IMG/VR virus record: IMGVR_UViG_3300044712_001138
Coordinates: 1-32,115 of that record
Source of the DNA: a virus
Strand: one strand, 5' to 3'
DNA: 32,115 nt
Positions 4,484 through 25,088 of this stretch are shown here, in pieces; position 1 is the first letter of the stretch; every line of letters starts with the position of its first letter. The translations under genes were made by a program, and so were the position numbers. The notes below the pieces were generated by a model. The model did no database searches. It saw only the letters and a program-made list of their open reading frames with translations, and was not told where the DNA came from.

Positions 4484-4485
4484 TA

Positions 4486-5010: not shown

Positions 5011-5016
5011 AACCTA

Positions 5017-5973: not shown

Positions 5974-5990
5974 ATATTACTTCCTGTACT

Positions 5991-6797: not shown

Positions 6798-6818
6798 TTT
6801 TTACTCCTAGTTGAGGGA

Positions 6819-7166: not shown

Positions 7167-7181
7167 GTTTTTGTTTTCCTT

Positions 7182-9077: not shown

Positions 9078-9084
9078 AAACTTC

Positions 9085-10788
9085 CTAGTAAACAAAGCCC
9101 GTTTCAGGATCGACCTGATAATCTTCCGTGCTATGTGCGTTCTCTTCGATACTGTCCATTGGGCGGTTAGAAGACATTTCTTCAGTTAGAGCTGCTGCCA
9201 TAACTAAGTCGTCGTGCTCTCCTGAAGCTGCTTCTCTGCGAACAGTATTTCCACTCTTACTTTGCACCTGAACGTAGGTAGACATTTCAGAGATCAAATC
9301 TCGGTCTAGAAGGATTGCTTTTCCTTCTTTTGCGGCTGTCTTAAATTTCTCAGTTAATAAAATCTTGCTTTGGCTGGTAGTTACGAAACCTAGTTTTTTG
9401 GTAGGTTTGTTTGTCTGCTCGTCTATGACCGTTCTCTTATAAAGATTGCGGTATTCCATCTGCTTTAAAATATGAAGAACAACTTGTCCGTGGTTGTTAG
9501 CTTCTACGCAGATGTGAGCGTAGTTATAAAATTTACCGAGCTTAAATAACTCTTTTGCAAAGTCAGCTGGTTCAATGTCACCCCAAATTCGAGCAACATA
9601 TTTTCCAGTCTTAGTATCTTTAACGTATGCGCCAGCTCTATCCTGCCCTACTCCACCTGCTGGATCTGCACCCATTACATAAGTTCTGGATGGGTCTGGA
9701 GATTCCCAGATTGCTAAGATCCCTTTTGGATCTTCATGAATTTCCATCTTGTTGCCGTTGGAGATTAGAAGTCCAACGAACATTGGATCGCGTGTGTTGC
9801 GATCTTGCATCTTAAGAATTGCGTTTCCAAATACTGAAGCTTCTCCTGAGAGAAAGCAGTCTTGGTCATTTGTCGGGTATTCGTTTTCGAAGACTTCTTC
9901 TTTGCCTTCGCACTTTGCTTCGATTGCATATCTACGCCAGATGAGATGAGGCTTAGTGATTTTCCCAGCGTACTGTTTAAGAAGTTCTAGTTCTTTCGCG
10001 GTCCACTGTGGTTCTTCTGACATATCCCAGCGATCAAGATCTTCTGGGTAGTATTCAAACCAGGGAACAAAGAAACCTTTATATGGAGCTACTGAACCTT
10101 TGCTGCGCCAGAGCTGCCATTGCCGATAAAACTCTCCGCCTCGTCCGTATGCGGTAGATTCTAGAGTGACTTCACAGTTATCAGGAACCCCATTAAGAGA
10201 ACCAACGAGACGATCACCTTCAATACGACTAGCTTCAGCAACGTGAAGAAAGTGGAGCGTCTTACCACGGAAATCGTGCATGACAAGAACCGAGGATTCA
10301 AGTGCCCGTCCACACCCATCGCTTTCAAAAGAGAGAGAGTTAGAGCTATCGCTCTTTTCAACAGGCCGATATAGATGTCCCCAATCTCTGAGAAAGCACG
10401 TATAAGCGAATTTGGTAATATCGTTGAAAATCGTTTTAACGGTGCCCAACTTGTGGCAAAGAATGCCAGCGCGAAAGTTAGACTCCCAAAGGGCATAATC
10501 AAGACCACGAATGCAATTAACCGTAGTGAAACCGACCTGACGGCACTTAAGAACGATGTTTCGCATTCCTCGTTCTTTGAGATAACGTTCTTGCGGTTTG
10601 TTCGCTTTGAAGAACGTCGATTTTTTCGTGAGCTTATCTTGGATGCGGTATAAGTTTTTGACTCGCTCATCGTGACCTAGCTTCAGCATTTCATCGCGAA
10701 ATGCGATCTTTCCGGCTTTTTCGCCTTGAAGAGAAATAACTTCTTTGACCACTTTCATGGCCTCTAAAAATTTAGGTGAGTAATGCAA
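9085..10788 (-). CDS. terL: Terminase large subunit (packaging ATPase/nuclease)
   Basis: About 567 residues. ATPase domain: the adenine/Walker A region is VLKCRQVGFTTV at about 79-90, the variant found in many TerL proteins in which the lysine precedes the loop; Walker B is TLHFLHVAEASR at about 177-188, with catalytic E near 185. Nuclease domain: YVMGADPAGG (D near 375), HICVEANNHG (E near 429) and EHDDLVMA (D near 526-527) supply the acidic metal ligands of the RNase H-like fold. It cuts and pumps DNA into the capsid. The start is uncertain: TTG at 10788, or ATG at 10758 (ten residues shorter), with GAGG only two bases before it. No small terminase lies beside it; a candidate is at 28320-28700. 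Confidence 0.9.
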   Translation of the reverse strand: MHYSPKFLEAMKVVKEVISLQGEKAGKIAFRDEMLKLGHDERVKNLYRIQDKLTKKSTFFKANKPQERYLKERGMRNIVLKCRQVGFTTVNCIRGLDYALWESNFRAGILCHKLGTVKTIFNDITKFAYTCFLRDWGHLYRPVEKSDSSNSLSFESDGCGRALESSVLVMHDFRGKTLHFLHVAEASRIEGDRLVGSLNGVPDNCEVTLESTAYGRGGEFYRQWQLWRSKGSVAPYKGFFVPWFEYYPEDLDRWDMSEEPQWTAKELELLKQYAGKITKPHLIWRRYAIEAKCEGKEEVFENEYPTNDQDCFLSGEASVFGNAILKMQDRNTRDPMFVGLLISNGNKMEIHEDPKGILAIWESPDPSRTYVMGADPAGGVGQDRAGAYVKDTKTGKYVARIWGDIEPADFAKELFKLGKFYNYAHICVEANNHGQVVLHILKQMEYRNLYKRTVIDEQTNKPTKKLGFVTTSQSKILLTEKFKTAAKEGKAILLDRDLISEMSTYVQVQSKSGNTVRREAASGEHDDLVMAAALTEEMSSNRPMDSIEENAHSTEDYQVDPETGFVY

Positions 10789-10790
10789 AA

Positions 10791-11045
10791 TTAATCCCAG
10801 AGGATTTCTAAAGTGGAGGAACCAGTAGCAGTCTTAAAATGTAACGTCTGGGTATTGTCGGTTGTTAACCGATCTAATTTGGACCCAGCTTTTAAAGTGT
10901 AAAAATTTGTAGTGCCAACACAGGAATCTACAGAGAACTGAATATCTTCAAGACCTACATTTTGGAGAGAAACGCTGAACGCTGTATCAGGGACGGTGTA
11001 GTCAGTACAAGTTGTATCTACCGTAATTCTCAATGGCGATAACAT
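10791..11045 (-). CDS. Small beta-rich virion protein
   Basis: An 84-residue protein starting at the ATG at 11045 (MLSPLRITVDTTC), chosen because it begins right after the previous stop; a longer frame from about 11075 would overlap that gene. The sequence alternates beta strands (AFSVSLQNVGLEDIQFSVDS, TLHFKTATGSSTLEILWD) and looks like a small Ig-like or jelly-roll domain. It is the last gene before terL in the fibre cluster. A decoration or fibre accessory role is inference. Confidence 0.6.
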   Translation of the reverse strand: MLSPLRITVDTTCTDYTVPDTAFSVSLQNVGLEDIQFSVDSCVGTTNFYTLKAGSKLDRLTTDNTQTLHFKTATGSSTLEILWD

Positions 11046-11046
11046 A

Positions 11047-11631
11047 TTAGATTTCCGTCCAAACAATCGTTGCATCAAAGTTGCGGTTATTTGACTGTGG
11101 GTCTGCTGTTATAAGAATGGACTGATTGGCCAGAAGCTTTAGATAGTTATTTGGTAACAAATTAAGAACTGTGCAGTTCTGACCATTTGTATATGAACCA
11201 AGTAAGTTTCCCGGTGAAGTAACAGTTGGAACTGTAGTAACTAATGCTACTGGAGAAACTCCGCTACCGACCGTTCGTGTATAACCATTTACCGTTGTTC
11301 CGTTGACTGTAACAGTCGGAGAAGCATAAAGACCAAAGTCTGCATAAACGCCGTTGATAGTTACGTTTATGAGAATCGCTTTTATGTAGATTGCTTTTCC
11401 ACTTCCACTTGGATTTCTAAAAAGAATAAGCGGGTTGTTATTCCCCGATGAAGGGGCATTAACGTTTTTAATTCCTGCTGAAAATACTAGATTGCTATCT
11501 AACTCTGACGTACTCGAAGTAGAACCTACATCAACCTTTAAACGATCTCCCACATTTCCGATGAGAGAATTGTCGGTATTACCTCGTAGTTTTACGATAC
11601 CGCGAACAACTTTTAAGATGCTATTTAACAT
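11047..11631 (-). CDS. Predicted virion/fibre protein
   Basis: A 194-residue protein, low in charge and rich in Asn, Thr, Val and Gly. A short helical N-terminus (LNSILKVVRGIVKLRG) precedes a beta-sandwich-like body ending NRNFDATIVWTEI, an end typical of phage jelly-roll fibre or head-spike proteins. Its ATG overlaps the preceding stop (TAATG), so translation is probably coupled. No specific family recognised. Confidence 0.6.
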   Translation of the reverse strand: MLNSILKVVRGIVKLRGNTDNSLIGNVGDRLKVDVGSTSSTSELDSNLVFSAGIKNVNAPSSGNNNPLILFRNPSGSGKAIYIKAILINVTINGVYADFGLYASPTVTVNGTTVNGYTRTVGSGVSPVALVTTVPTVTSPGNLLGSYTNGQNCTVLNLLPNNYLKLLANQSILITADPQSNNRNFDATIVWTEI

Positions 11632-12146
11632 TAAGAAGTAACCTGAGTTGTCTTAGTAAATTCACTACTGACGAATGTGTGCGTGTAAGTAACTGTCTTT
11701 AGGACTGTCGTCCCGTCAGTATCAAAGAGCTGCAAAGTTTCCGTTGTCGGGTTGAGACTTGCATCATAAGTGAACGTAACTTTTGCAATTCGATTGCCGG
11801 TCGTCTGCGTTGCACTTTTGAAATACTCAATGAAATTGACTTCGCCATTTGCAAGATAAGTCGGAAGCTCACTGTTAGTTGGTCCGAAATATTTATCTAG
11901 GATGGCTTGAGTTGTAGCTCCAACGAGAGTGTTATCTGCCGTCGTCGTATTTACATCTATTTCAGAAGCGACTTGAGGTCCTACAGTCTTCTCAACTCCT
12001 GCGCTCGTCTTCTGTTTTATTTTTCCTGATCGGGCATACGTTGATAGTTGTCCCGATGGGGGATTGGCTGGAGCGACACTTAGGTCGTCATGCTCTATTC
12101 GAGAAATCTCAATTAAAGCATCTTCATCGAATCCAGCCTTACCCAT
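11631..12146 (-). CDS. Predicted virion protein with shared N-terminal module
   Basis: A 171-residue protein with AGGAG three bases before the ATG. The first 55 residues (MGKAGFDEDALIEISRIEHD, then APANPPSGQLSTYARSGKIK) match in pattern the N-termini of the genes at 12212-13108 and 13826-14359: an M-x-K-x-G start, a short acidic stretch, a P-rich turn, then G-Q-L-x-x-Y and a K-I-x-x-K strand. The rest is beta-rich (RIAKVTFTYDASLNPTTETL, VLKTVTYTHTF). The common N-terminus may be a docking module to the same virion component. Function unknown. Confidence 0.6.
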   Translation of the reverse strand: MGKAGFDEDALIEISRIEHDDLSVAPANPPSGQLSTYARSGKIKQKTSAGVEKTVGPQVASEIDVNTTTADNTLVGATTQAILDKYFGPTNSELPTYLANGEVNFIEYFKSATQTTGNRIAKVTFTYDASLNPTTETLQLFDTDGTTVLKTVTYTHTFVSSEFTKTTQVTS

Positions 12147-12215
12147 AATCTCCTACCAGGGAGAGAGCCTGCTGCCCTCTCCCCCTGAGACAGTTCTAAG
12201 ATCGACAGATCTTAG
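12147..12215 (-). other. Two RNA hairpins in the intergenic spacer
   Basis: On the minus strand the spacer between two virion genes can form CTAAGATC-TGTC-GATCTTAG, a perfect 8-bp stem with a 4-base loop overlapping the upstream stop codon (12196-12215), and then GGGAGAG/CTCTCCC. Neither is followed by a T run, so termination is unlikely. They more probably stabilise mRNA ends or mark a processing site ahead of the AGGAG of the next gene. Confidence 0.45.
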
Positions 12216-13108
12216 TTCTGTGCAATTAGTTGAACTTGTGCTTTCCAATCAAAGGTCTGCGCTGCGATCCCTTGAACTTGCACGAGTAAATTGTTTCCAG
12301 AGACAGTAAAGTTTGCATCTAGTGCATTGTTACTCTCTGTTTTAAATTGTTGTTGTGTATTTCCCTGCTGAGTAGCCGAACCAGCAGCTGCACGGAAGAA
12401 GGCACCTTCAAGAACGTAGATACCGCGTGCTTCGCCTCCGCCATCAGTTCTGCGACCGATGATTTCAGCTCTTACGAGATAGACTGTGTCATCAGCTAGA
12501 GGGATAGTTGCAATTGTCGTAGCAGTTGCAGAAGTAGTTTGTACTTCGTGTTCGCTATGAGTTTTGCTATTGAATTCAAACTTGGAACCGTCATCGATTT
12601 TGACAGAACCTTTTGTACCGTGAGAAGTAGAACGAAGAGTTAAATTTCCACTTGCAGCAATTCCACCGTTTGCTGTTTGACCGCTAGAGCGACCAGCAAG
12701 CAATAAGTATTGCGTATGATCATCATCAGACAGACCAAGTAAAGCACCGTGGTCTAAGTCGTCGTTAATATCACTAAAGTCTACAGTTAAAGAAACTGTA
12801 TCAGTTCCTTCGACGATATCTAAACGACCGTCAGTAGAAACAAGTCTTCTAAATTCTAATTGTCCAGAAGCATTCTTCTGTTTGAAAATTTGTCCACCAG
12901 AACCGCCGCCTGGAGTTGAACCAATTGCTAACCCGTCTTCAACGATGAGAACTTCAGAGAGAGAAGGCTTCTTAATATATAAGTGGTCAGACTTGATATA
13001 TAAAAGCATTTGTCCGACATCTGCGTCAGACGGAGTACTACTTAAATTTTCTAATGCGCTTTCGCTTACGTTAAATAAACGTCGCTCATCCCAACCGAAC
13101 TTTGCCAT
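12212..13108 (-). CDS. Tail/head fibre protein with DHxQYLLLAGR motif
   Basis: A 298-residue virion protein. N-terminal module at 1-60 (MAKFGWDERRLFNVSESALE, LLYIKSDHLYIKK) as in its neighbours. The middle has DDLDHGALLGLSDDDHTQYL followed by LLAGRSSGQTANGG and NLTLRSTSHGTKGSVKI, a motif series well known from phage fibre proteins. The C-terminal domain (about 190-298) contains AEIIGRRTDG, ARGIYVLEGAF, NFTVSGNNLLVQVQGI and AQTFDWKAQVQLI and is clearly related to the C-terminus of the gene at 13110-13805. AAGG lies nine bases before the ATG. Likely a receptor-binding or capsid-fibre protein. Confidence 0.75.
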   Translation of the reverse strand: MAKFGWDERRLFNVSESALENLSSTPSDADVGQMLLYIKSDHLYIKKPSLSEVLIVEDGLAIGSTPGGGSGGQIFKQKNASGQLEFRRLVSTDGRLDIVEGTDTVSLTVDFSDINDDLDHGALLGLSDDDHTQYLLLAGRSSGQTANGGIAASGNLTLRSTSHGTKGSVKIDDGSKFEFNSKTHSEHEVQTTSATATTIATIPLADDTVYLVRAEIIGRRTDGGGEARGIYVLEGAFFRAAAGSATQQGNTQQQFKTESNNALDANFTVSGNNLLVQVQGIAAQTFDWKAQVQLIAQN

Positions 13109-13109
13109 C

Positions 13110-13805
13110 TTAAGTTACCTTTACTTGAGTTATTTTTGGCTGCCAGTCGATAGTTTTTCCATCGACGCCAATAACTATTAATTTGATTTGATTGCCTGAG
13201 ACATCCCAGTAACAATCCATTTGTGCATCATCACGCTGTGCTAAACTTTGAAATGTATGACCTGTTAATTGTGCATCGCCGAGGTCACGTCTAACTCTTT
13301 GAGTAAGTTCCCAAATTCCAGAGGCATCTAAAATGTCTGTCCGTCGTGCTGTTAATTCTGCTGTAAATTTGTATGCGCTGTTGGGATCTAAAACTGTTGT
13401 GTATGCGACTGCATTTACTGCTCCGACTGTCGTCGTCGGTGCAATTGAAACAACTGTTCCAGATGCAGCTTCTTCGATAGCTTCTTGGACGGTTTTAGCA
13501 ACGAAGCCGTTTGACCTCTCAGGAGAAGAAAGAAATCGCTCGTTAAAAGATGTGTCCGGGTACTTAAGAAAGTTAAGTGCATCTCCAACTGAGAGATCCA
13601 TTACCCCGTCATTAACTACGATATCGCCTCTAGTGATGAGAGGCGTGAACTCGTTTAATGCTGCTGTACTTCCCCACAATAAATATTCTTGAACTTCAAT
13701 TACGTGAGAAGACGTTGCAGGAATTTCAAAACCCACAGTTGCAAGAACTATTGGCGATGCAGTCGTATTTTTGATTATCTTTGCCATTAGGAGTGTTTGA
13801 TTCAC
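13110..13805 (-). CDS. Virion/fibre protein sharing a C-terminal domain with its neighbour
   Basis: A 231-residue protein if it starts at GTG 13805; an ATG at 13787 (MAKIIKNTTASPIVL) gives 225 residues and looks more natural, but the only SD-like GGAG is 17 bases before it and forms a GGAGTG-N7-CACTCC hairpin with sequence next to the start. The N-terminal half contains VIEVQEYLLWGSTAALNEFT and DLSVGDALNFLKYPDTSFNE. The C-terminal half (AELTARRTDI, SGIWELTQRVRRDLGDAQLT, YWDVSGNQIKLIVIGVDGKT, IDWQPKITQV) is homologous in pattern to the end of the 12212-13108 product. Probably a fibre-tip or baseplate component. Confidence 0.7.
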   Translation of the reverse strand: MNQTLLMAKIIKNTTASPIVLATVGFEIPATSSHVIEVQEYLLWGSTAALNEFTPLITRGDIVVNDGVMDLSVGDALNFLKYPDTSFNERFLSSPERSNGFVAKTVQEAIEEAASGTVVSIAPTTTVGAVNAVAYTTVLDPNSAYKFTAELTARRTDILDASGIWELTQRVRRDLGDAQLTGHTFQSLAQRDDAQMDCYWDVSGNQIKLIVIGVDGKTIDWQPKITQVKVT

Positions 13806-13825
13806 TCCAACTACAGGTTCGACGA

Positions 13826-14359
13826 CTAATAATTTCCGTCGAGAATTACCCCTACTACTGGGTTATCTGCTGATCCAGATGTGACCTTGATTGCTAGTTG
13901 CTTTCCTGTTGTAACAGGAATCTCAACTGAAAAAGTTGCTGTTCTCTGAGAGCTTAAACTTACGCTGGTTAAATTCGTGTAAGTGACTCCGTCATGCTCT
14001 TGTATTGTCAGAGTGAAGGTTCCAACAGAACCATTCGTAACTAAAATTTTTCTGATCGTCGGTTGGGTTAACGCGACTACTCGTCCTGAGACATTACTTG
14101 GAACATTGTCGTTTAATAAGTAAACGCCGGTTCCTACTGTACCACTCCTACCCCATGTAAAACCTGGAGAAGCGGAAGTGCCAAATCCACCGAATGCATG
14201 TTCAACGCCGTCTTCGTCTAACCAGTATGCAATTCGATCTCTAAAGTAAAACTCGATTGCACCTGCTTGAGGGGCGGTCGGAACCTTACCTTTATTTCGA
14301 AGCCTTAGCGTGTCGACAACAAAGGTTTCTCTGCTATCTCTTTGACCGCCCTTAGCCAT
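13826..14359 (-). CDS. Predicted virion protein (beta-sandwich)
   Basis: A 177-residue protein beginning MAKGGQRDSRETF. The N-terminal module (KVPTAPQAGAIEFYFRDRIA, YWLDEDGVEHAFG) shows the P-x-x-G...Y...D-G-x-E pattern seen in many phage virion proteins. The C-terminal 110 residues (RKILVTNGSVGTFTLTIQEH, LTSVSLSSQRTATFSVEIPV) look like a jelly-roll. The start lies immediately after the stop of the long fibre gene with no clear SD, so translational coupling is likely. Exact role unknown. Confidence 0.65.
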   Translation of the reverse strand: MAKGGQRDSRETFVVDTLRLRNKGKVPTAPQAGAIEFYFRDRIAYWLDEDGVEHAFGGFGTSASPGFTWGRSGTVGTGVYLLNDNVPSNVSGRVVALTQPTIRKILVTNGSVGTFTLTIQEHDGVTYTNLTSVSLSSQRTATFSVEIPVTTGKQLAIKVTSGSADNPVVGVILDGNY

Positions 14360-14360
14360 A

Positions 14361-15671
14361 TTAAGTTATCGAGTCATAAATCGGAACGAATCCGAGACTA
14401 GTCCCGTTGACAGCGAAGACTTCCATCTTCTTAACTACAGTTCCTAAAGTTGTTGCAGCAGCGGAGTTACCAACTCCGAGACCAGTCTTACCGACGACTA
14501 AATCATTCGCGGTAACTTTACCTGTTCCTCGGTTGATGGTCATAAGTGCTGTCCCGGTATCGGCATTGTAGAACACCCAAATATTTCCAGGTCCGTCGCA
14601 CACAAGATACTGACCATCTGCAAGAGATAGTAACGCATTACCTGAGCGGTAAATTTCAGCAGCTCCACCGGAGCCATCCATATGAAGTCCACGTCGTAAT
14701 GTATCGAGGTAGTAACCGTTAAGTGCAGTACTCGGTAATCGCATGAGACGAGTAGCAAAAATATCACGTGGTCGGTTACCAGATGAGGTTCCGATGTCAC
14801 CCCCGCCGTCTGTGTTCCATCTTAAGTTCGCAGCTGAGGAAGCTTTTAAAGTAAGTGTACCTGCCGACGAAACAGTTAATACTGAACTTGCACTATGTTG
14901 AAGGTCTAACAGGTCTACAGCCGTAGATCCATTGTCTATCGTTAAAGCTGTAGCTGAACCGCCAGTTATCGTTGTAGACAACGCGCCGTTAGCATCTTCA
15001 GTTAATTTACCGTTTCCAATAGTGCTAGAACCGGTTATACGCGCCATCTTGCCAGAAGTGAGGCCTGACCCTGAGACCTTAGCAGAGAACGTCGTAAAAT
15101 CGCCGCTAGACAGGTATCCATCGTGAGTAGCATCAGCTTGCTGAATGCTGAACACTCCACCGCTATAAGCGATTGGAGCTGAAGCAGATACTGCACCTTG
15201 TGCTCTCGCTGTTGTGAAGAATAGCTTTGAGCCTTCTGCTAAGTCTGTTGTACTCTTAGCTGCAAAGGCAGTATTGAATCTTGCAGCCGTGTAATAAAGA
15301 TTTGATCCTTCAGCTAAATCTGAAGTTGTCTTCAATGCTAAACGAGAATCGAATCTGGCTGTCGTGTAGTAAAGATTCGAACCTTCTGCGAGGTCACTTG
15401 TCGTCTTAAGAGCAAGTCGCTCGTCAAAGCGAGTTGTCGAGTAGTAGAGGTTTGCACCCTCTGCTAAATCGTCTGTTGAAAACGGAGCAAGGGTAACCGT
15501 CGGGGTTAAGAGATTGTTTGCATCGTCATAACTCCAACTGATACCTGTACCGTTTTGAAACAGGCCTGCAATAGCATCTTGCGATGCTTCGTCAGTAAAA
15601 TATAAATTGATGTTACCTTGAGGTAACTCATCCGTACTTTGTAAAGTCGGGGACGTTAAAATGAAGCCCAT
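14361..15671 (-). CDS. Long tail fibre with 25-residue DLAEGxNLYYTTARF repeats
   Basis: A 436-residue protein, first gene of the late module, with AAGGAG nine bases before its ATG. Residues 66-165 are four tandem 25-residue repeats (consensus T-S-D-L-A-E-G-S-N-L-Y-Y-T-T-A-R-F-D-x-R-L-A-L-K-T), with a decayed copy at 13-37; such repeats build the shaft of many phage fibres. The rest is Ser/Thr/Gly-rich and beta-prone (LTVSSAGTLTLKASSAANLR, DIGTSSGNRPRDIFATRLMR), typical of fibre bodies. No intramolecular chaperone (peptidase S74) motif is seen. It probably takes part in host recognition. Confidence 0.8.
   Translation of the reverse strand: MGFILTSPTLQSTDELPQGNINLYFTDEASQDAIAGLFQNGTGISWSYDDANNLLTPTVTLAPFSTDDLAEGANLYYSTTRFDERLALKTTSDLAEGSNLYYTTARFDSRLALKTTSDLAEGSNLYYTAARFNTAFAAKSTTDLAEGSKLFFTTARAQGAVSASAPIAYSGGVFSIQQADATHDGYLSSGDFTTFSAKVSGSGLTSGKMARITGSSTIGNGKLTEDANGALSTTITGGSATALTIDNGSTAVDLLDLQHSASSVLTVSSAGTLTLKASSAANLRWNTDGGGDIGTSSGNRPRDIFATRLMRLPSTALNGYYLDTLRRGLHMDGSGGAAEIYRSGNALLSLADGQYLVCDGPGNIWVFYNADTGTALMTINRGTGKVTANDLVVGKTGLGVGNSAAATTLGTVVKKMEVFAVNGTSLGFVPIYDSIT
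15177..15476 (-). repeat. Four tandem 75-bp coding repeats in the fibre gene
   Basis: The DNA for fibre residues 66-165 consists of four in-frame 75-bp units encoding the DLAEG-NLYY-TARF motif. Units two and three are most alike, the fourth most diverged. In-frame repeats of this size can expand or contract by recombination and so change shaft length. Confidence 0.8.
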
Positions 15672-15684: not shown

Positions 15685-15713
15685 TTGACAAGGCGCGTAA
15701 AAAATGTTATAAT
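15685..15713 (+). promoter_or_regulatory. Consensus sigma-70 promoter for a short antisense RNA
   Basis: TTGACA (15685-15690), 17-bp spacer, TATAAT (15708-15713): a perfect match to the consensus boxes. Expected start is near 15720. It points away from the late genes and overlaps the Shine-Dalgarno of the fibre gene on the other strand. The sequence between and after the boxes resembles the promoter at 29786-29814. Confidence 0.8.
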
Positions 15714-15721
15714 AGGGATAC

Positions 15722-15750
15722 TACCGCCGGGGGTAAAGTAGGGGAAGGGA
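15722..15750 (+). repeat. 29-bp G-rich repeat, copy 1 (inverted relative to copy 2)
   Basis: Twenty-nine bases starting TACCGCCGGGGG and ending GGGGAAGGGA are identical to the reverse complement of 29749-29777. Identity stops exactly at both ends. It begins nine bases after the -10 box in both places, at about +3 of the transcript. Confidence 0.9.
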
Positions 15751-15767
15751 GAGGGTTTGACTCAGCT

Positions 15768-15793
15768 GCGACACTTTTAGGTGTCGCTTTTTT
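15768..15793 (+). terminator. Intrinsic terminator of the antisense RNA
   Basis: GCGACAC (15768-15774), loop TTTTAG, GTGTCGC (15781-15787), then six T. Perfect 7-bp stem. In the other direction the stem is not followed by T, so it should not stop late transcription. Confidence 0.8.
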
Positions 15794-15945
15794 ATTTCCG
15801 TTTGCTCCGGCGAGGCCGCTAGGCCGAAGCCGGCAGTATCTAGCTGTGTCTTACTTGTTGAGTTCATGATTGATGGGAGAGGAGACGATAGTCTCCGAAT
15901 CTTGGAAGAGAAAAGCTAAAGGCATTCCCTTAGTATTATACCCCT

Positions 15946-15974
15946 ATTATACCATAAATGCTGCGCAATGTCAA
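15946..15974 (-). promoter_or_regulatory. Late-operon promoter
   Basis: On the minus strand, TTGACA (15974-15969), 17-bp spacer, TATAAT (15951-15946), followed by AGGGG and a second TATAAT 11 bases on. The expected start near 15939 gives a leader of about 268 nt before the fibre gene. The -35 lies in an inverted repeat, GTCAAG-N6-CTTGAC (15970-15987), shared with the divergent promoter at 15983, a possible operator. Confidence 0.75.
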
Positions 15975-15982
15975 GTCTTATC

Positions 15983-16011
15983 TTGACTAGATGCATTATT
16001 TGTGATATGAA
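15983..16011 (+). promoter_or_regulatory. Divergent promoter for the structured RNA
   Basis: TTGACT (15983-15988), 17-bp spacer, TATGAA (16006-16011) preceded by TG at -15/-14, an extended -10. The -35 is the second arm of the inverted repeat whose first arm is the late promoter's -35, so the two promoters are back to back. Start expected near 16018. Confidence 0.5.
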
Positions 16012-16017
16012 GCGAAC

Positions 16018-16295
16018 CTCCCCAACCGTCCACCCGCCAGGGGCAGCCAAGAACCTCAGGTATAACACCCTCTATTTTCGATTCTTTGCCTTCAAATTTT
16101 GCATTGCATCATCCAACCCAGGGGTAGATAGCGCTTTCAACTATGAAAGTGTTTAAAAGGATTCTAAAGCGCTAGCGGCGATAGACTTCCAAAATAGTGA
16201 TTACAAGCCCGGAATAGGTGGTAGGGGTGTTAAGACCACTACCCTTCAGAGCAGCTGTGCTCAGCTAAGAAGCTGGGGCAGCTGTTTTTTTTTTT
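16018..16295 (+). ncRNA. Candidate structured RNA of about 280 nt
   Basis: The stretch from a plausible extended -10 promoter to a strong intrinsic terminator carries no convincing reading frame. It can form AGCGCTTT/AAAGCGCT (16130-16137 with 16166-16173, perfect 8 bp) or, using overlapping bases, CTTTCA-ACTA-TGAAAG (16134-16149); the two exclude each other. A further stem GTGGT/ACCAC with GGTAG/CTACC alternatives lies near 16217-16243. I do not recognise a known RNA family. The terminator argues that something is transcribed here. Confidence 0.4.
16252..16295 (+). terminator. Strong intrinsic terminator
   Basis: CAGCTG (16252-16257) pairs with CAGCTG (16279-16284), enclosing an inner CAGCT-AAGA-AGCTG stem, and is followed by eleven T. 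Confidence 0.85.
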
Positions 16296-16297
16296 CT

Positions 16298-16732
16298 GGG
16301 AAATTTTTTTAGGAACCAACACGAGCCAGAGTTTTATAAAGTATCTCTGCGTCGGGGGTGCAGGGTACTTGGTCCCCTGCCCTCCAGGGGTACGGGTCTC
16401 AGCACTACTATGGCGCAGCTAAGTACTTGATATCTGGTGTGAACTACTAATACTAAGGTATACCCCAAAGGTATAGCAATGCAGCTAATGTGATTATAGA
16501 GCGTTGAAGTTACAGGCAAAAACCCAAAGGCCAGTCAACTAGACTGGTGTCTTGTTTCCAAGTGCCTGCTTTTGGGGATTGGTTTACGGTTTACGAGCTA
16601 TGAAGTTGCAGCGCTAAGTTATGAGTTGCAGCTATGTGAGTGCGGTTGCATCTCTCTTCACACACCTACCATAACATTTGGCTAAGCTGTACTCAAAGGG
16701 CTATCCAAGAAACCAGGCACCTAGGTAAAGCC
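16298..16732. other. Non-coding stretch with small repeats
   Basis: No supported gene on either strand. Visible items: a hairpin GCAGGG/CCCTGC near 16350-16372; CCAGTC-N5-GACTGG at 16531-16547, followed on the minus strand by a short T run (a weak candidate terminator for the lipoprotein gene at 16733); GGTTTAC twice in tandem at 16581-16594; and two near-copies of TATGA(A)GTTGCAGC(GC)TA at 16599-16616 and 16620-16634. No tRNA, intron core or att core was recognised. Confidence 0.5.
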
Positions 16733-17278
16733 TTAAGGCGCTTCAAAAGTGATAGGAGCGTCAGCTTCAAAGTTATATGGCTGAGCGACTTCAGTTACAG
16801 ATGCATAGTATCCGCTCGGAGCCACAGAACCCGAAAGACTCGTATTGCAAGTTGAACCCTGAACACTCGCATAAGTTATCAGTGGAAGTGAATCAGTTGA
16901 GCGGCTGCCAATGAGATAATACTTAGATTGCACAACGTCATAGTAAACTGTTTTGCCCGAAACGCCTTTACTTGAGTCGGAAATCATAACAGGTGTTCCA
17001 GTGCAGTTACCAGAACTGTAGTACATTCCCATACCGGAATGATATGCATAGCGGCCAGTTTGAAGATCTATAGTTGCGAAGCGATCAGCTGAGGGAATAT
17101 ATACGTGTGCAACGTCAGAACGAATTAGATCTATTAAGTATGAGGTTATCGTCCCGCTCTTTTTAGAGACGAGATACGGTTTACCAGTTTGAGTTGAGGC
17201 AGCATTGTCAGACTTCTTACCACACCCGACTAATGCCGAAAGAATTAGGACCGTCGTGAAAGCATTGATTTTTGTCAT
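16733..17278 (-). CDS. Predicted outer-membrane lipoprotein
   Basis: A 181-residue protein. The N-terminus MTKINAFTTVLILSALVGCG is a lipoprotein signal with lipobox LVGC and cleavage before Cys19, followed by a KKSDN linker. The mature part is beta-rich with aromatic clusters (RYAYHSGMGMYYSSGNCTGT, GKTVYYDVVQSKYYLIGS) and two spaced cysteines that could pair. No known domain is recognised. It stands alone on the minus strand, with a TATAAT at 17304-17299 and a palindrome upstream, suggesting its own regulated promoter. A role in lysogenic conversion or superinfection exclusion is possible but purely inferential. Confidence 0.75.
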   Translation of the reverse strand: MTKINAFTTVLILSALVGCGKKSDNAASTQTGKPYLVSKKSGTITSYLIDLIRSDVAHVYIPSADRFATIDLQTGRYAYHSGMGMYYSSGNCTGTPVMISDSSKGVSGKTVYYDVVQSKYYLIGSRSTDSLPLITYASVQGSTCNTSLSGSVAPSGYYASVTEVAQPYNFEADAPITFEAP

Positions 17279-17298
17279 TCATAAATTTTAGGGGCACG

Positions 17299-17335
17299 AT
17301 TATACAATTGCAAGGCTCTGAACATTTATGTTCAG
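17299..17335 (-). promoter_or_regulatory. TATAAT box with an 18-bp palindrome upstream
   Basis: CTGAACAT-TT-ATGTTCAG (17318-17335) is a perfect 8+2+8 palindrome lying where the -35 of the TATAAT at 17304-17299 should be and directly after the recombinase stop. Without a following T run it is not a terminator. It is an operator candidate; the two-base centre also resembles a serine-recombinase crossover site. Confidence 0.5.
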
Positions 17336-17908
17336 TTAAGTTTTCTTAAGTGCTTTTGCAACGCCCTGCTTCGTGATGCCGAAGTGATTACCTATTTCGC
17401 TTAGCGACTGACCAGCTGCGCGCATCTGTTTCGCTCGCGCTATATCGATAACCTGTTTTCGCCCGAGTACAACGCCACGTGACTTCGCATGTTTCAGTCC
17501 GGCCTTCACACGCTCTTTAATAAGAGCTGCTTCAAATTCACCCATTGCGCCGATGATCTGTACCATCAAACGGCCAGATGGAGTTGTGAGATCAATCTGG
17601 TCTTTTAGTGAAACTAATTCAACACCGAGAGTTTCGAATTCATGAATTGTAGTTATGAGATGTCTTAGAGATCTGAATAGACGATCGAGTTTCCATATGA
17701 GAACGCGCTTAACTCGGCCTGCTCTACAGTCAGCAAGTAAATACTGCAACTGTTGTCTGTTTCCATTAGTCCCAGTCTTTCCGTTGTCCTCATAGACCGC
17801 TATATCATCCCATCCGCGAGCCTTTGCGAGATTTAATAGGTCTTGCCTTTGAAGGTCTGTACTTTGTTCTAAAGTCGATACTCGTATGTATATAGCTGTT
17901 TTCAGCAT
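17336..17908 (-). CDS. Serine recombinase (resolvase/invertase family)
   Basis: A 190-residue protein of the usual resolvase/invertase length. Catalytic N-terminal domain: AIYIRVSTLEQ with nucleophile Ser11 and Arg9, GKTGTNGNRQQLQ, and VLIWKLDRLFRSLRHLI supplying the conserved arginines near 70-75. Then a long E-helix (MVQIIGAMGEFEAALIKERV) and a C-terminal helix-turn-helix (AAGQSLSEIGNHFGITKQGV). GAGG lies five bases before the ATG. These enzymes cut and rejoin DNA at short sites with a 2-bp centre. It may resolve multimers or invert a segment; the nearby fibre genes and the inverted 29-bp repeats that bracket it make inversion worth testing. Confidence 0.85.
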   Translation of the reverse strand: MLKTAIYIRVSTLEQSTDLQRQDLLNLAKARGWDDIAVYEDNGKTGTNGNRQQLQYLLADCRAGRVKRVLIWKLDRLFRSLRHLITTIHEFETLGVELVSLKDQIDLTTPSGRLMVQIIGAMGEFEAALIKERVKAGLKHAKSRGVVLGRKQVIDIARAKQMRAAGQSLSEIGNHFGITKQGVAKALKKT

Positions 17909-18018
17909 TGTAACCTCATTTCGTCAACTATAAGTTAACATACTGCATTATAATAATCAAGTGAATTCAGTAGTATACGCTTTGGGCCTACAGTGAACTA
18001 AATAACACAATTGAGCTA

Positions 18019-18047
18019 TTGACGCATATAGTCAGATTCGGTATTCT
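18019..18047 (+). promoter_or_regulatory. Promoter of the plus-strand accessory operon
   Basis: TTGACG (18019-18024), 17-bp spacer, TATTCT (18042-18047); start near 18054. The leader of about 55 nt contains a direct repeat, GTAACGCAGAAA (18066-18077) and GTAACGCCGAAA (18086-18097), 20 bp apart, just before the GGAG of the first gene. Confidence 0.6.
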
Positions 18048-18107
18048 AGACTCATAAACAACGTTGTAACGCAGAAAAACAGTACGTAACGCCGAAACGG
18101 AGATTAT

Positions 18108-18695
18108 ATGAATAAAAAGGACTTAGAACTAAATAAAATGTTAATAGTCGCTTCAATCTTAACCGTCCTTGCTTTAACGGCTTGTGGACCGGGCGTTGGA
18201 ATCAGAAATGCGGGCAACTCTGAAGAACCAAACGTTGTATTACTTCCAGCTGAGTTACCAGCTGAGATCGCAAATGATGATGATAACGAAGAACAAGAAA
18301 TAGTCGTTGTTCTTAATGTGGAAAACCACGCGAACGATCAAGTTATCAATGAAGCACACGAAGCAAACATTGAAGTGATCGAAGTTCAATCGGAAACACC
18401 AGTCGAAGAGATCATTGCAGCTATCGAAGAGATTGCCACAGTTGATGAAGTAACAATTCAAACTATTCAAGACGCAATTGCAGATGAAGCAGAAGTTATC
18501 ACACTCGAAGTAACTCCAGAGCCACAACACGAAGAAGCTGCTCCAGTAGTTGAAGTGGTCCCTCAAGTCGAAGTTGTAGTCATCCCTGTTATCACACCCT
18601 CGCCTACACCGACACCTACACCAGTTATCGAACTACCAAAGCATTGCAGTGATGGTCACGGCAAAGACGGTTCTAAATCTAAAGCTTGTAAATAA
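18108..18695 (+). CDS. Acidic Val/Glu-rich lipoprotein with Pro-Thr stalk
   Basis: A 195-residue protein with GGAG six bases before the ATG. The N-terminus has a signal with lipobox LTAC (Cys26). The mature part is strongly acidic and rich in Val, Glu and Ile (EEQEIVVVLNVENH, VDEVTIQTIQDAIADEAEVI), then a SPTPTPTPV stalk and a Lys/Gly/Ser tail with two cysteines (HCSDGHGKDGSKSKACK). No domain is recognised. It is the first gene of a rightward operon and may be a surface-exposed accessory lipoprotein. Confidence 0.75.
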   Translation: MNKKDLELNKMLIVASILTVLALTACGPGVGIRNAGNSEEPNVVLLPAELPAEIANDDDNEEQEIVVVLNVENHANDQVINEAHEANIEVIEVQSETPVEEIIAAIEEIATVDEVTIQTIQDAIADEAEVITLEVTPEPQHEEAAPVVEVVPQVEVVVIPVITPSPTPTPTPVIELPKHCSDGHGKDGSKSKACK

Positions 18696-18706
18696 TAGGA
18701 GTGAAT

Positions 18707-18904
18707 ATGAGTACACGAACAGTAGTTATTTTAACGTCAGACAATTTCAAAGCAACTTGCGTGAGCTTCGAAGCTTACCGCGAAATCAGACTTAGCATGA
18801 GCACTGGAGACTTTCACACTCACGAATATGAAGTTGTGGAAGTGCCAGAGAATCAGGAAGTGATCGAAGTCGATGATCTACTTTTAAACGGAGAGTTAGT
18901 ATGA
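18707..18904 (+). CDS. Small acidic protein of unknown function
   Basis: A 65-residue protein. The ATG at 18707 is preferred over the GTG two codons upstream because GGAG is then five bases away. The sequence MSTRTVVILTSDNFKATCVS continues into an acidic C-terminus (YEVVEVPENQEVIEVDDLLL). It overlaps the next gene by ATGA, so translation is coupled. No family recognised. Confidence 0.65.
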   Translation: MSTRTVVILTSDNFKATCVSFEAYREIRLSMSTGDFHTHEYEVVEVPENQEVIEVDDLLLNGELV

Positions 18905-19662
18905 ATAAGAACTACTTTAAAAAGCTATCTGAAGAACTAAACACTTGGGTAAAGAATAATAAAAACTGGAGAGAAGACCGAAGACTTATCGTTGAACAGA
19001 CGGGTTTTCGACAACTCCACGTTGCAGACCGTGGATTGAATCATAATGAATCAAAGCTATTGAGCTTCGGAACTAAAATAATTGAAGCTCAGTCTATTCA
19101 CTTAGCATATGAACCGAAATACAACTTCTTAACACTCTATGTGAAGTCAACTATTCACTCTAACGATGCAGGTACTTATTTAGAGTTAAGGAAAGACGGA
19201 AAAACTTTTTCGGTTACGTTACATGATCGTGACGAAAAACTTCCTTGGAGAATTAAAGACATTCCAGGCTTTGAGGATGTCTCGCCTAATTTATTCCAAT
19301 GTTATGCCCAAGATGATTTTAAAGAAGCCTTAACGAAAGCAGGTTATAAGATTCTAGTCTTCTTTAGATTCACGCATGTGATAGCAGCTCCGAGCTTCGC
19401 ACATACTCACGCGAGTTCAACTGAAAAAAACGGCTTTAAAAAAACTCAGCGAGGCTTTGAACTGAAAGGCCGATCATTTGGGACTTATAACAGCGTCCCA
19501 TATTTCATTGAAGTTAAGAAGGCTAAATCTCTCGGAACAATTCCATTGCAAGCTTTAGGAATTGAACAGAAGGGTTACTATTCACACGATCAACGCTGCT
19601 CAATTTTAAAATCTGAAGCATTGGAAGCTAAGCGCTTCTTCAAACGGAAGGGGTTGTTATGA
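18901..19662 (+). CDS. Unknown 253-residue protein
   Basis: A soluble, mixed-charge protein with GGAGA before its start and four-base overlaps (ATGA) with both neighbours. Visible stretches: FLTLYVKSTIHSNDAGTYLE, SVTLHDRDEKLPWRIKDIPG, a hydrophobic strand YKILVFFRFTHVIAAPSFAH with HTHAS after it, and a basic C-terminus (LEAKRFFKRKGLL). No signal peptide or membrane helix. I do not recognise the family; an intracellular phage accessory function is all that can be said. Confidence 0.7.
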   Translation: MNKNYFKKLSEELNTWVKNNKNWREDRRLIVEQTGFRQLHVADRGLNHNESKLLSFGTKIIEAQSIHLAYEPKYNFLTLYVKSTIHSNDAGTYLELRKDGKTFSVTLHDRDEKLPWRIKDIPGFEDVSPNLFQCYAQDDFKEALTKAGYKILVFFRFTHVIAAPSFAHTHASSTEKNGFKKTQRGFELKGRSFGTYNSVPYFIEVKKAKSLGTIPLQALGIEQKGYYSHDQRCSILKSEALEAKRFFKRKGLL

Positions 19663-19919
19663 GTAAACGATTCTATATCCCATTCAACATGGCGATCTAT
19701 AACAATGGCGGTTACAAGTTAGATTTAATTAAGGCTGCTATTAAAGAAGCAGGCGGGAAGAATGTACGACAAGCGAATCAGTTTGGTTGGAGTAACCAAC
19801 CCAAGGTTGTAACTTTTTCAGCTGACAGAAAAGAGCTGGTCGAAAAAATTGAACGGCACGTGGCATTCGTTTGTCGATACCCAGATTGGGCCATAATTGC
19901 AGCGAGGGTTTCAGAATGA
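19659..19919 (+). CDS. Small unknown protein
   Basis: An 86-residue protein with AAGGGG five bases before the ATG. The sequence MSKRFYIPFNMAIYNNGGYK has a basic helix (LDLIKAAIKEAGGKNVRQAN) and a C-terminal part PDWAIIAARVSE. It overlaps the CarD-like gene by ATGA, so the two are probably co-translated and may act together. Family not recognised. Confidence 0.65.
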   Translation: MSKRFYIPFNMAIYNNGGYKLDLIKAAIKEAGGKNVRQANQFGWSNQPKVVTFSADRKELVEKIERHVAFVCRYPDWAIIAARVSE

Positions 19920-20368
19920 AACCTAAATTTAAAGTTGGACAACGTGTAGTCCATAAGTCACACGGTCCTGGAATCATCACGGCAATTGAAGAGCGTCAGT
20001 TCGATCCTGACAACGTGACAACATTCTACATTATTGCCTTAAGAGATTTCGGTACTACTAAGAAGATATTCGTACCGCTAAAGTCCGCAGACGAGCGTTT
20101 ACGTCTTCCAGTTGACGACGAAGGCAAAGAACAGATTCTTGCAATGCTTTCAAGTGCTCCTGAAGATTCATTCAAAGGCTTTAGTTACAAGCAGCGATAC
20201 CACAAGATGATGGAGCGTATTCGAAGCGGTGATCTACACTGCGTTTCGGAAGTTGCAGCAATCCTATTGCAACTCAGAAAAGAAGAAAAATTAAGTTTTA
20301 TTGAGCACCGACTGCTCTTGCAGTGCCTCGAAATCATTGAGGCAGAACTACAAGTCAAAGTTTCGTAA
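19916..20368 (+). CDS. CarD/CdnL-like RNA polymerase-binding regulator
   Basis: A 150-residue protein starting at the ATG that overlaps the previous stop; GAGGG lies upstream, and a longer in-frame start at 19871 lies inside the previous gene. Residues 5-65 have the CarD/TRCF RNA polymerase-interacting domain pattern: FKVGQRVVHKSHGPGIITAI, FYIIALRD, IFVPLKSADERLRLP. Residues 90-146 match the helical C-terminal domain: YKQRYHKMMERIRSGDLHCV, SEVAAILLQL, then KLSFIEHRLLLQCLEIIEAE. Known CarD/CdnL proteins bind the RNAP beta lobe and stabilise the open complex. In a phage this suggests control of host or phage promoters; that is inference. I do not see the C-terminal tryptophan wedge at its usual place. 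Confidence 0.75.
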   Translation: MKPKFKVGQRVVHKSHGPGIITAIEERQFDPDNVTTFYIIALRDFGTTKKIFVPLKSADERLRLPVDDEGKEQILAMLSSAPEDSFKGFSYKQRYHKMMERIRSGDLHCVSEVAAILLQLRKEEKLSFIEHRLLLQCLEIIEAELQVKVS

Positions 20369-20400
20369 ACAGAAAAACATGGGAACAAAGGGGAACGTGT

Positions 20401-20589
20401 ATGCAGAACATCAAACTAGTCGTGTCTTGTCTTGAGTGTGAAGACTCTCAATTCGTTGAGGGCGAACCTTGTCAGGAATGCTGCCCACATAATGAATTTG
20501 AGCACTTCACGTGTCTCGACTGTGGCTATGAGAAGTGCCCTGGAGACTGTATAGACCGTGCCGAATACTACATCGATCCAGAAAGATAG
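20401..20589 (+). CDS. Cys-rich zinc-finger-like miniprotein
   Basis: A 62-residue acidic protein with GGGGA before its ATG. Cysteines are arranged as CLEC, CQECC, then CLDCGYEKCPGDC, enough for one or two zinc sites. Such miniproteins are common phage early products of unknown function. It is separated from the integrase by a repeat-rich spacer. Confidence 0.65.
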   Translation: MQNIKLVVSCLECEDSQFVEGEPCQECCPHNEFEHFTCLDCGYEKCPGDCIDRAEYYIDPER

Positions 20590-20775
20590 GAGATTGCAAA
20601 CGCCTGAAAATTCAGGCATATAGGGCTTCTTCACACGGGTGCATCATCCGTTGGGGACGCCAATTTAAGCCTTAAAGCTAATGATTTCAGGTACTTAACT
20701 GTGGTGACCGTGTGATAACTTCACACGTTCACACGGTGCTATTAACCCCGTGTGGCGTATAACCGATGAGGCTAT
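20590..20775. promoter_or_regulatory. CACACGG-box region before the integrase (att/arm-site or operator candidate)
   Basis: A gene-free spacer with five copies of CACACG(G): 20632-20638 (+), 20708-20714 (-), 20722-20727 (+), 20730-20736 (+) and 20748-20754 (-), plus GCCTGAA-AA-TTCAGGC at 20602-20617. Phage integrases usually have attP, with short arm-type repeats, beside int. The same layout could be operators for an unidentified regulator. Confidence 0.5.
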
Positions 20776-21864
20776 ATGGGTTACACAGTACGAAAGAAGT
20801 CTGGCCGCTGGTATGTTCAGTATGAAACATACCCTGACGGCAAACGAACAGCGAAAACAGTTGCCGGTGAGGATCTTGCAAGGCTTGGCATTCAAGATCA
20901 CATGTCTATCGAAGACGTGAAACTGATCATCAAAGACGTTAACCGTCACGAGAGAAAAACGCGATGGGATGCTAAGCGCTTCCGCATTCAAGAACGGATG
21001 GAAGCTGACGCCGTTGTTACGGTAAAGACTTTGCCACGAACTTTTGTGTCCGAGTTTGAAGACGAACTCCACTCCTATCCAAATTGGAAGAAGCTCCTCT
21101 CTAATTGGAATAGAGCTAAGAAGCTCATTGCCACGCTAAACATCCCCAGTGACCAGTGGAAGCGACGCAAGCAAGCAATCTATAACTACTTCGAAGAGAA
21201 TAGACTTTCGGATGCATATGCCAAAAAGGTGATACGCGTCATGAATCTATGGGGTGACTTCTATTCCCAGAAGACAGGTACTGCCTTTAGTATCTTGCCG
21301 ACGCCGAAAGGCCACGCGAAGAGTCGCATTCGAAAGAAGTATGAAAGTTCCCGTAAAGTTGCAAAGGCCTCCGAAGGATTGACGGAAGATCTACTGCGAA
21401 GCATCAAGCAGACGATGATGCCCCTGCAATACAATTGGCTCTTTATAAGTCTCTGGTTTGGCTTGCGCCCCAATGAAATGCGCAATCTAGACAAAGCTCA
21501 ACTAACTTATGTGACTTATGATCCCGATAAGAAGTTGTACTTCCTAAACATAAAGCAGACCAAGCTTTCAAACTTGTCGGATGATTTACAGTGGAAAATA
21601 ATCCCAGTTCTTTATCCAGAACAGAAAGCAGCACTGGAATTAATAAATAGTAAGTCCTACGACGAGCCGCTGCCTAAGACAGTGCGTCTACACTCTAAAG
21701 GGAACTATAAGTTGTATGCTGGTCGAAAAGGTTTCGGCCCTTTAATGTGGGACAAAGGCCATGATATTGTTGAGGTTAGTAGTTGGCTTGGCCACAAGTC
21801 CATTGACAGAACCTATGCTGACTATATGAATTGGAAGAAACTTAAACTAAGATTTGTGGCATAA
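20776..21864 (+). CDS. Tyrosine-recombinase integrase
   Basis: A 362-residue protein. The N-terminus (MGYTVRKKSGRWYVQYETYP, DGKRTAKTV) is an arm-binding-like beta domain; residues about 85-165 form the core-binding helical domain. Catalytic domain: FGLRPNEMRNL with Arg231, a lysine at NIKQTK (260-263), YAGRKGF with Arg317 in box II (Tyr in place of the usual His), WLGHKSIDRT with His340, and the nucleophile probably Tyr350 (alternatively Tyr347) in TYADYMNW. GAGG is four bases before the ATG. It would integrate the genome into the host chromosome and marks the phage as temperate. The preceding repeat region is a natural place for attP. Confidence 0.8.
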   Translation: MGYTVRKKSGRWYVQYETYPDGKRTAKTVAGEDLARLGIQDHMSIEDVKLIIKDVNRHERKTRWDAKRFRIQERMEADAVVTVKTLPRTFVSEFEDELHSYPNWKKLLSNWNRAKKLIATLNIPSDQWKRRKQAIYNYFEENRLSDAYAKKVIRVMNLWGDFYSQKTGTAFSILPTPKGHAKSRIRKKYESSRKVAKASEGLTEDLLRSIKQTMMPLQYNWLFISLWFGLRPNEMRNLDKAQLTYVTYDPDKKLYFLNIKQTKLSNLSDDLQWKIIPVLYPEQKAALELINSKSYDEPLPKTVRLHSKGNYKLYAGRKGFGPLMWDKGHDIVEVSSWLGHKSIDRTYADYMNWKKLKLRFVA

Positions 21865-21934
21865 CGAAAGTTGATGCCGAGCTTGGCAGAATGATTGCAT
21901 GTCATAATGCCTGGTTACATAGGAGAATATTAAA

Positions 21935-22249
21935 ATGTCTACTTCAAAAGGTAAATCTATTGTTAGAAAAAATGTTACAGCTACAGATACCGCTGAGGAA
22001 GCGCCAAAGCGCAGATATGGTAAGCGTTTCATAACGATACGTGGTCGTTCCATCATCGCAGACTATCACCCAGATGATACAGTTAGCCTGTATGTTACAG
22101 AAGAACAGTCTAAGACTCTATTGCCGGTTGTAGCAGGGGTTCCACGCGAGAAAGCTAAGGAAACTGCCAAACTTATTGCCGGTTTGATGGATTCTTATGA
22201 AGGTTTGCTCACTAAAGGTGCCGTTACTATTGATTTAACAGTCAAATAG
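21935..22249 (+). CDS. Small basic protein of unknown function
   Basis: A 104-residue protein with AGGAG nine bases before the ATG. A Ser/Thr/Lys-rich N-terminus, then RRYGKRFITIRGRSIIADYH and a C-terminal part with VAGVPREKAKETAKLIAGLM. It has no membrane segment and looks like a small nucleic-acid-binding or regulatory protein, but no family is recognised. It follows the integrase by 70 bases. Confidence 0.6.
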   Translation: MSTSKGKSIVRKNVTATDTAEEAPKRRYGKRFITIRGRSIIADYHPDDTVSLYVTEEQSKTLLPVVAGVPREKAKETAKLIAGLMDSYEGLLTKGAVTIDLTVK

Positions 22250-22277
22250 CGTATTCCCCTAGCATACAAGCCGAAAT

Positions 22278-22308
22278 TTGACACTACACGTCAAAAAAGT
22301 GTTATACT
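22278..22308 (+). promoter_or_regulatory. Promoter with start site at or next to an ATG
   Basis: TTGACA (22278-22283) and TATACT (22303-22308), spacing 19 bp, followed by AGGGG. The -35 lies in an inverted repeat TTGAC-N7-GTCAA. The start is expected at 22315-22316, the A of the next ATG, so the mRNA would be leaderless or nearly so. Confidence 0.45.
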
Positions 22309-22315
22309 AGGGGAC

Positions 22316-22468
22316 ATGTACACAATAATATATCTCATAGCAAACGATGAATTCATCACTGAAGTATTATTTTCTGCATTAGAAGCTCAAAATCGATACT
22401 ACAACCTAAAAATACAGCCTGAAATAGTGGCTATCGCATTACCGGTTAAAAAAACTCTTTACAACTGA
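22316..22468 (+). CDS. 50-residue ORF with a leaderless start
   Basis: MYTIIYLIANDEF continues through ITEVLFSALEAQ to VKKTLYN, 50 residues and a TGA. The promoter's predicted start coincides with the ATG; AGGGGAC just before the ATG would be only partly in the RNA. The peptide has a plausible alpha/beta pattern. Its 3' end overlaps the -35 of the next promoter. No family recognised. Confidence 0.5.
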   Translation: MYTIIYLIANDEFITEVLFSALEAQNRYYNLKIQPEIVAIALPVKKTLYN

Positions 22469-22486
22469 CTATACGCGTTATATAAT
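22458..22486 (+). promoter_or_regulatory. Promoter of the collagen-like lipoprotein unit
   Basis: TTTACA (22458-22463), 17-bp spacer, TATAAT (22481-22486). Seven bases after the -10 is the A of ATG 22493, so the transcript should begin at the start codon. Confidence 0.65.
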
Positions 22487-22492
22487 GTATTT

Positions 22493-22669
22493 ATGATGTA
22501 CGTTAGTAAACGCGCTAGTATAGCACTTAAATCCATCAAGTACATTCATGACGGCCTTGAACAAGCTACTCGTGAACAGAATCTGAAAGCATTTTTCAAA
22601 CTGCTTCAGGTGCTCTGTTACGAGACTAAGCAATTGGCCCTTGAGATGGACAAACGTAAGGAGTCCCGT
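22493..22669 (+). other. In-frame leaderless N-terminal extension upstream of the lipoprotein
   Basis: From ATG 22493 the frame stays open without a stop into the lipoprotein gene. These 59 codons encode a basic, helical segment ([40 protein letters not shown]). A product starting here would carry the lipoprotein signal internally and would not be lipidated normally; alternatively the region is a short N-terminal ORF fused in frame. Both starts look usable. Confidence 0.5.
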
Positions 22670-23242
22670 ATGAAAACAGTAGCAATGATTGCCCTAGGTT
22701 TATTTCTCATTGGTTGTTCTAATCACGACCACTTTGTGGGAAGTGCTTCATGCACTGTAACGGGAACAGGTGCTCTCACCTGCCCTGACGGATCTAGTTA
22801 TCAAGTTAACAGTGGCATCGACGGTAAAGACGGTTTAAATGGTGCTCAAGGTGCAACGGGTCCGCAAGGACCGCAAGGCCTTCAAGGCAACGATGGTCCT
22901 CAAGGTCCAACCGGCGCTACAGGTGCGACTGGAGCCACGGGTGCAACTGGAGCACAAGGTCCCCAAGGCGCTCAAGGACCACAAGGCATTGCAGGGACCA
23001 ATGGCACGAATGGTACCAACGGGATTGATGCAACTCCTACCTCGGTAGTGCAACTATGTGGAAGCTGTACAGCAGCTTATCCAAACGTGTTTCCTGAGAT
23101 TGGTCTTTGTCTTGCTGGCAAACTCTATGGAGTTTACTCAGCCAATAATGGTTTCTTAGTTTACTTATCAAATGGCACATACAATTCGAACGGCATCAAC
23201 TGTAGCTGCTCATTCGTAGTTAACGGATGCAATATTCAGTAA
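22670..23242 (+). CDS. Collagen-like lipoprotein
   Basis: 190 residues from the ATG at 22670, with AAGGAG six bases upstream; chosen because [16 protein letters not shown] is a lipoprotein signal with lipobox LIGC (Cys16). A short domain ([19 protein letters not shown]) leads into 24 consecutive Gly-X-Y triplets ([15 protein letters not shown], four GAT, three GTN), then a Cys-containing C-terminal globular part ([32 protein letters not shown]). Collagen-like triplets form trimeric rods; in phages they occur in fibres, in bacteria in surface lipoproteins. The lipobox favours a surface lipoprotein made in the infected or lysogenic cell. An in-frame upstream start exists at 22493. Confidence 0.8.
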
Positions 23243-23280
23243 CTCTTTCTAGCTGACCGTAAATTAACAGGGAGAAAAAC

Positions 23281-23679: not shown

Positions 23680-23693
23680 GAAAGAAGGAAACA

Positions 23694-23970: not shown

Positions 23971-23972
23971 GT

Positions 23973-24865: not shown

Positions 24866-24877
24866 AAGGAACGAAGG

Positions 24878-25087: not shown

Positions 25088-25088
25088 G

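Follow-up and report, generated by a model that had tools for sequence, protein, structure and literature searches.

Candidate shared control element in the leaders of two operons of an uncultured podovirus-like phage

Two operons of an uncultured phage, apparently podovirus-like, start with the same leader sequence of 29 nt, and matched pairs of leaders recur at the same two loci in five relatives. In the 32,115-base virus record studied here (the window, that is, the whole stretch of DNA analysed), one of these leaders follows a perfect promoter at 15685 that points away from the late structural genes. On balance, it seems probable from sequence comparison that the 15685 promoter is the outer promoter of a rightward gene block and that its leader is a control element shared with the leftward operon, with one factor serving both. 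In a first-pass annotation, the short RNA from this promoter had been proposed to hold down late expression by pairing with the late leader. Antisense control is not the best reading, and any restraint of the late structural genes is probably secondary.

The minus-strand structural genes of the window (portal, terminase and major head protein) span 237 to 15671. The gene at 14361-15671 matches the phage structural-protein family phrog_697 (E 9e-23), and its "fibre" label is putative. No named phage was matched in a megablast search with the window, none being close in DNA. The main blocks are the following:

14361-15671, minus strand: first late structural gene, with a phrog_697 match
18108-27075, plus strand: rightward gene block from the ORF map, mostly plus-strand, toward which the 15685 promoter points
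27215-29616, minus strand: leftward operon from the ORF map, with a first gene syntenic with relatives
29865-30803, plus strand: gene for 312 amino acids (phrog_1706), divergent from the leftward promoter and a conserved neighbour in relatives

The rightward-block layout of the window is also found in G001, G003, G004 and G010. These belong to the relatives (labelled G or L here) that were retrieved via portal and head proteins, several of which are fragments. Matches to a serine recombinase (17336-17908, minus strand), to a tyrosine integrase (weak; 20776-21864, plus strand) and to a collagen-like tail-fibre protein (22493-23242, plus strand) were observed in the rightward region, so that the phage may be temperate or may switch fibres. 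The stretch of about 760 nt at 15975-16732 holds no convincing gene, and a terminator-like hairpin with a T-run lies on its plus strand at 16271-16296. It has a fold z of about -1.2 and matches no Rfam family, and it is a possible non-coding RNA.

Three sites in the window carry the arrangement TTGACA-17-TATAAT, each with 12/12 matches and a TG before the -10. No 12/12 promoter was obtained in 40 Markov-simulated windows, and sites with at least 11/12 matches number five in the window versus 0.68 expected. Transcript starts were placed from the promoter positions. The features of the control regions are the following:

15685-15713, plus strand: perfect sigma70 promoter (12/12, 17-nt spacer) of the outward, rightward transcript, with a counterpart in ten relatives
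15946-15974, minus strand: perfect promoter (12/12) facing the leader and reading toward the late structural genes, with a convergent counterpart in relatives
29786-29814, minus strand: perfect promoter (12/12) of the leftward operon
15720-15793, plus strand: short leader RNA, with start and end predicted from the promoter and terminator positions
15768-15787, plus strand: intrinsic terminator hairpin, then TTTTTT; relatives' leaders mostly have a hairpin without a T-run
15722-15750, plus strand: rightward copy of the 29-nt element, an exact match to 29777-29749 on the minus strand
29749-29777, minus strand: second, exactly matching copy, at the start of the leader of the leftward operon

The promoter and terminator positions bear out a short, terminated plus-strand RNA that is convergent with the late transcript. 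The terminator reads GCGACACTTTTAGGTGTCGC then TTTTTTATTT. The minus-strand late leader, with a predicted start at about 15939, does cover 15720-15793 as had been described. The overlap claimed between the plus-strand promoter and the ribosome-binding site of the late gene exists, but it amounts to merely 2 nt (AAGGAG at 15686-15681 on the minus strand, -35 from 15685). Apart from the terminator hairpin, the stability of the whole short RNA is not unusual (z -0.58). In Rfam, no family was found at the gathering threshold in the window and none in the relatives, and a relaxed threshold gave only weak matches at chance level. For the G-rich leader, a G-quadruplex was rejected, as the G-runs are not retained in G003, G004 and G005.

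The 29-mer TACCGCCGGGGGTAAAGTAGGGGAAGGGA is present at 15722-15750 (plus strand) and 29777-29749 (minus strand), confirming that the 29779 transcript carries the same 29 nt in its leader. It has an identical orientation relative to transcription in both leaders and shows no dyad symmetry on inspection. Allowing up to 9 mismatches yields no further copy in the window, and exact pattern scans with 26 nt of the element gave none in viral and genome collections, which may omit close copies of this record. A 75-nt inverted repeat with 80% complementarity has the 29-mer as its core.

An outward promoter lies just upstream of the first late gene in ten relatives (L073, L075, L076, L077, L078, L080, L088, L095, L096 and L106). 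It is weaker, about 10/12, in L077, L078 and L095, and the near-identical L077 and L078 are both counted among the ten. In all ten, the outward promoter and the late ATG flank a separate late promoter with 9-12/12 matches, and most have a convergent promoter further upstream that is the counterpart of the one at 15974. In the window, the separate late promoter is missing, and its sole remnant is a weak 9/12 site (15737-15709, minus strand). L088 is the same record as G004; the two ends of this contig of 39,973 bases share an overlap of about 100 nt at 98%, and it is therefore probably a complete genome.

Matched leader pairs within one contig were found in G001, G002, G003, G004 and G010. The second copies at the early operon of G001-G004 were found by searching contigs with the outward leaders, and the G010 pair by reading its early locus. 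The longest run of identical nucleotides in the two leaders measures 29 nt in the window, 19 in G001, 19 in G002, 13 in G003, 20 in G004 and 9 in G010, where it is C-rich, versus 5-10 nt for leaders of distinct lineages; the close pairs G001/G002 and G003/G004 also match each other. In the two copies, the shared stretch has similar offsets from the -10 (8/8 in the window, 43/36 in G001 and G002, 20/20 in G003, 18/17 in G004 and 10/10 in G010). In G001, G002 and G004, the palindrome TATACGTATA is confined to the two leaders, a third match in G004 falling where the contig ends overlap. In G001-G004, a promoter lies ahead of the second copy, and after it come a second promoter and a small first gene, at about 150 nt; a conserved gene for 312-324 amino acids diverges from the copy, as in the window. 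Gene maps of the window, G001, G003, G004 and G010 all show two inward promoters and converging operons. The shared block is conserved in sequence with little covariation; a hairpin of at least 7 bp is found in 12 of 15 leaders, with differing stem sequences and in some cases not after the element. Because the element differs so much between lineages, its homology between them would rest on position.

Two further features were observed at the late loci of relatives. A structured RNA motif, consisting of a stem with loop GUCACCU, a UCACC/GGUGA pseudoknot and a hairpin with loop nGGCUA, occurs in their late leaders and before tail-like genes of other phages (L075 1699, L076 1225, L077 384, L078 276, L080 756, L095 168, L096 1257, L106 548, L073 16 and L261 989; also L192-L195, L197-L202 and L205). 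In the motif, 92.8% of cells pair and seven pairs are changed on both sides, slid controls being far lower; no Rfam match was found, and it is possibly an undescribed phage RNA class. The late leader of the window was considered as a copy of this conserved RNA and rejected, as the covariance model has no match there. Also, a basic protein of 103-105 amino acids (..KRRKSFCARMSGVKGPTSKDGKLTPKGAALRRWKC; phrog_4689/10346) is encoded near the late promoter in L075 (1789-2106), L076 (1341-1652), L078 (348-659), L106 (666-977) and L080 (1012-1329). Its relatives are encoded in over 500 viral stretches, and it is absent from the window.

The link from the short RNA to the 29779 transcript, made in the first-pass annotation from the window, is strengthened by the recurrence of matched leaders at both loci. 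As the paired, matched leaders are conserved, the site is read as the beginning of the rightward operon, carrying a common control element; the 15685 promoter is more simply an operon start, because a same-strand block lies ahead of it in the window and in the relatives mapped. In the window and G001, the outward promoter is the only site with at least 11/12 matches upstream of the first part of the block that it reads into. The first 30 nt or so of the 15685 transcript form one copy of the element; the second copy is at the beginning of the leftward operon, at 29779. It is most likely that a single phage factor recognizes the element just after transcription start, whether in the form of a DNA operator or of nascent RNA, and would thereby control the two operons together. 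Given the leader terminator of the window, the strong 15685 promoter would yield only an RNA of 70-75 nt without the factor, and with it transcription would read through past the terminator. The overlap with the late leader may, as a secondary effect, interfere somewhat with late transcription.

Several observations count against shared control. G001 has a 10/12 promoter nearer the block, and read-through from 15793 to 18108 in the window would need to get past two further plus-strand terminator-like sites (16271-16283, with a T-run, and 16530-16548). The short, C-rich match in G010 and the sequence differences between lineages, which leave position as the basis of homology, weaken the case as well. 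Two minus-strand genes intervene before the first plus-strand gene at 18108, which has its own weak promoter at 18019 (9/12). No phage repressor or regulator gene was recognized among the 20 window ORFs scanned with Pfam. As to the form in which the element would be recognized, the palindromes and the conservation of the shared block in sequence rather than structure point to DNA, whereas the fixed distance from the start, the same orientation and the stable hairpin in most leaders (the terminator in the window) point to RNA.

Multiple known phage systems resemble this arrangement, and the element may work like put, OL/OR or L5-type sites, with membership in none of them claimed. In lambda, the same operator site, OL/OR, is present at two early promoters. 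Likewise, the same site is found here at both promoters and nowhere else, with a perfect palindrome core in G001, G002 and G004; unlike OL/OR, it lies downstream of the start rather than over the promoter, and the window copy is not palindromic. The lambda pR' leader (6S RNA), which acts with Q, combines a strong promoter with a short terminated RNA beside the late genes; the window shares the promoter strength and the short terminated RNA, but its promoter points away from the late genes. In HK022, the leaders of two early transcripts each contain one of the similar RNA antitermination elements putL and putR; the put RNAs measure about 70 nt and have two stem-loops (PMC9378689). Two similar leader elements are also found in the window, where a terminator follows, and in the five relatives, their transcripts being presumed early. 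The shared block differs from put in being 9-29 nt with a structure that has little covariation support, and antitermination is putative here. The promoters here also face inward, unlike the divergent PL and PR. L5-type repressor sites are asymmetric with an orientation that follows transcription (PMC9283540). The window 29-mer is oriented alike in both leaders, as in mycobacteriophage L5 operators and stoperators; L5 has more than 20 sites over its genome, in contrast to two here, one per operon start.

Transcription interference would explain the facing promoters in another way. Polymerases at or leaving the 15685 promoter could obstruct those from 15974, so that the promoter, not the RNA, would restrain the late genes until it is shut off. 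The predicted starts of these two facing 12/12 promoters are separated by about 220 nt. Promoters of this kind could plausibly form very stable open complexes, and convergent promoters are known to give rise to sitting-duck interference (PMC6593788). A phage CarD-like protein could further stabilize the open complexes, and CarD is able to repress promoters whose open complexes are stable (PMC10232725). A CarD-like RNA polymerase-binding protein is encoded at 19871-20368 on the plus strand of the window (PF02559 and PF21095, E about 1e-10) and in G010 near 30516-30701, with none in the 13 other related records searched; a connection with the perfect promoters is possible. However, late transcription in the relatives can start between the sites without crossing the outward promoter, and the matched leader pair is left unexplained. 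Interference as the main role is thus considered unlikely.

Cis-antisense control is judged distinctly improbable. In this reading, late expression would be reduced, through mRNA stability or termination, by pairing of the 70-75-nt RNA with the late leader, and the 29779 leader would act likewise in trans. P22 sar is a phage cis-antisense RNA, short and terminated, opposite a leader. The short RNA of the window resembles it, having its own promoter and terminator and full complementarity to the late leader, with predicted duplex energies of -156.6 kcal/mol in cis and -80.6 kcal/mol with the early leader. The window lacks the relatives' separate late promoter, and therefore its late mRNA probably contains the complement. 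Unlike in P22 sar, the antisense overlap is not conserved: in the ten relatives, late mRNA started at the separate late promoter, which lies downstream of the outward promoter site on the way to the late ATG, would lack the complement. The window's duplex would have its near end 49 nt upstream of the late AUG, beyond what a 30S subunit usually covers, and the predicted unpaired fraction of the Shine-Dalgarno sequence hardly changes (0.31 free, 0.34 with the leader bound). RNA pairing as a conserved means of holding down late expression was not sustained.

A recent promoter-leader duplication without regulatory meaning would fit a repeat that takes in the promoters (75 nt, 80%), but it is very unlikely, as five relatives have a pair of differing sequence at the same two loci and the two copies in the window are alike only in the shared stretch and the promoter hexamers. 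The serine recombinase might have inverted the DNA between the two repeats, but this idea was set aside, as the relatives pair likewise with other sequences.

Under shared control of the two operons, an isolated "antisense RNA" becomes a testable rule: the leader element is the same within a genome and different between lineages. A phage-specific recognition system, for immunity or antitermination, would be expected to show this combination. It is tentatively suggested, as a rather doubtful extension, that the fast-evolving, lineage-specific leader pairs of this uncultured podovirus-like family might be what a so far undescribed antitermination or immunity system recognizes, with specificity changing in step at both loci. 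In metagenomic phages that nobody has cultured, the rule could help locate both the regulator and the blocks of early genes.
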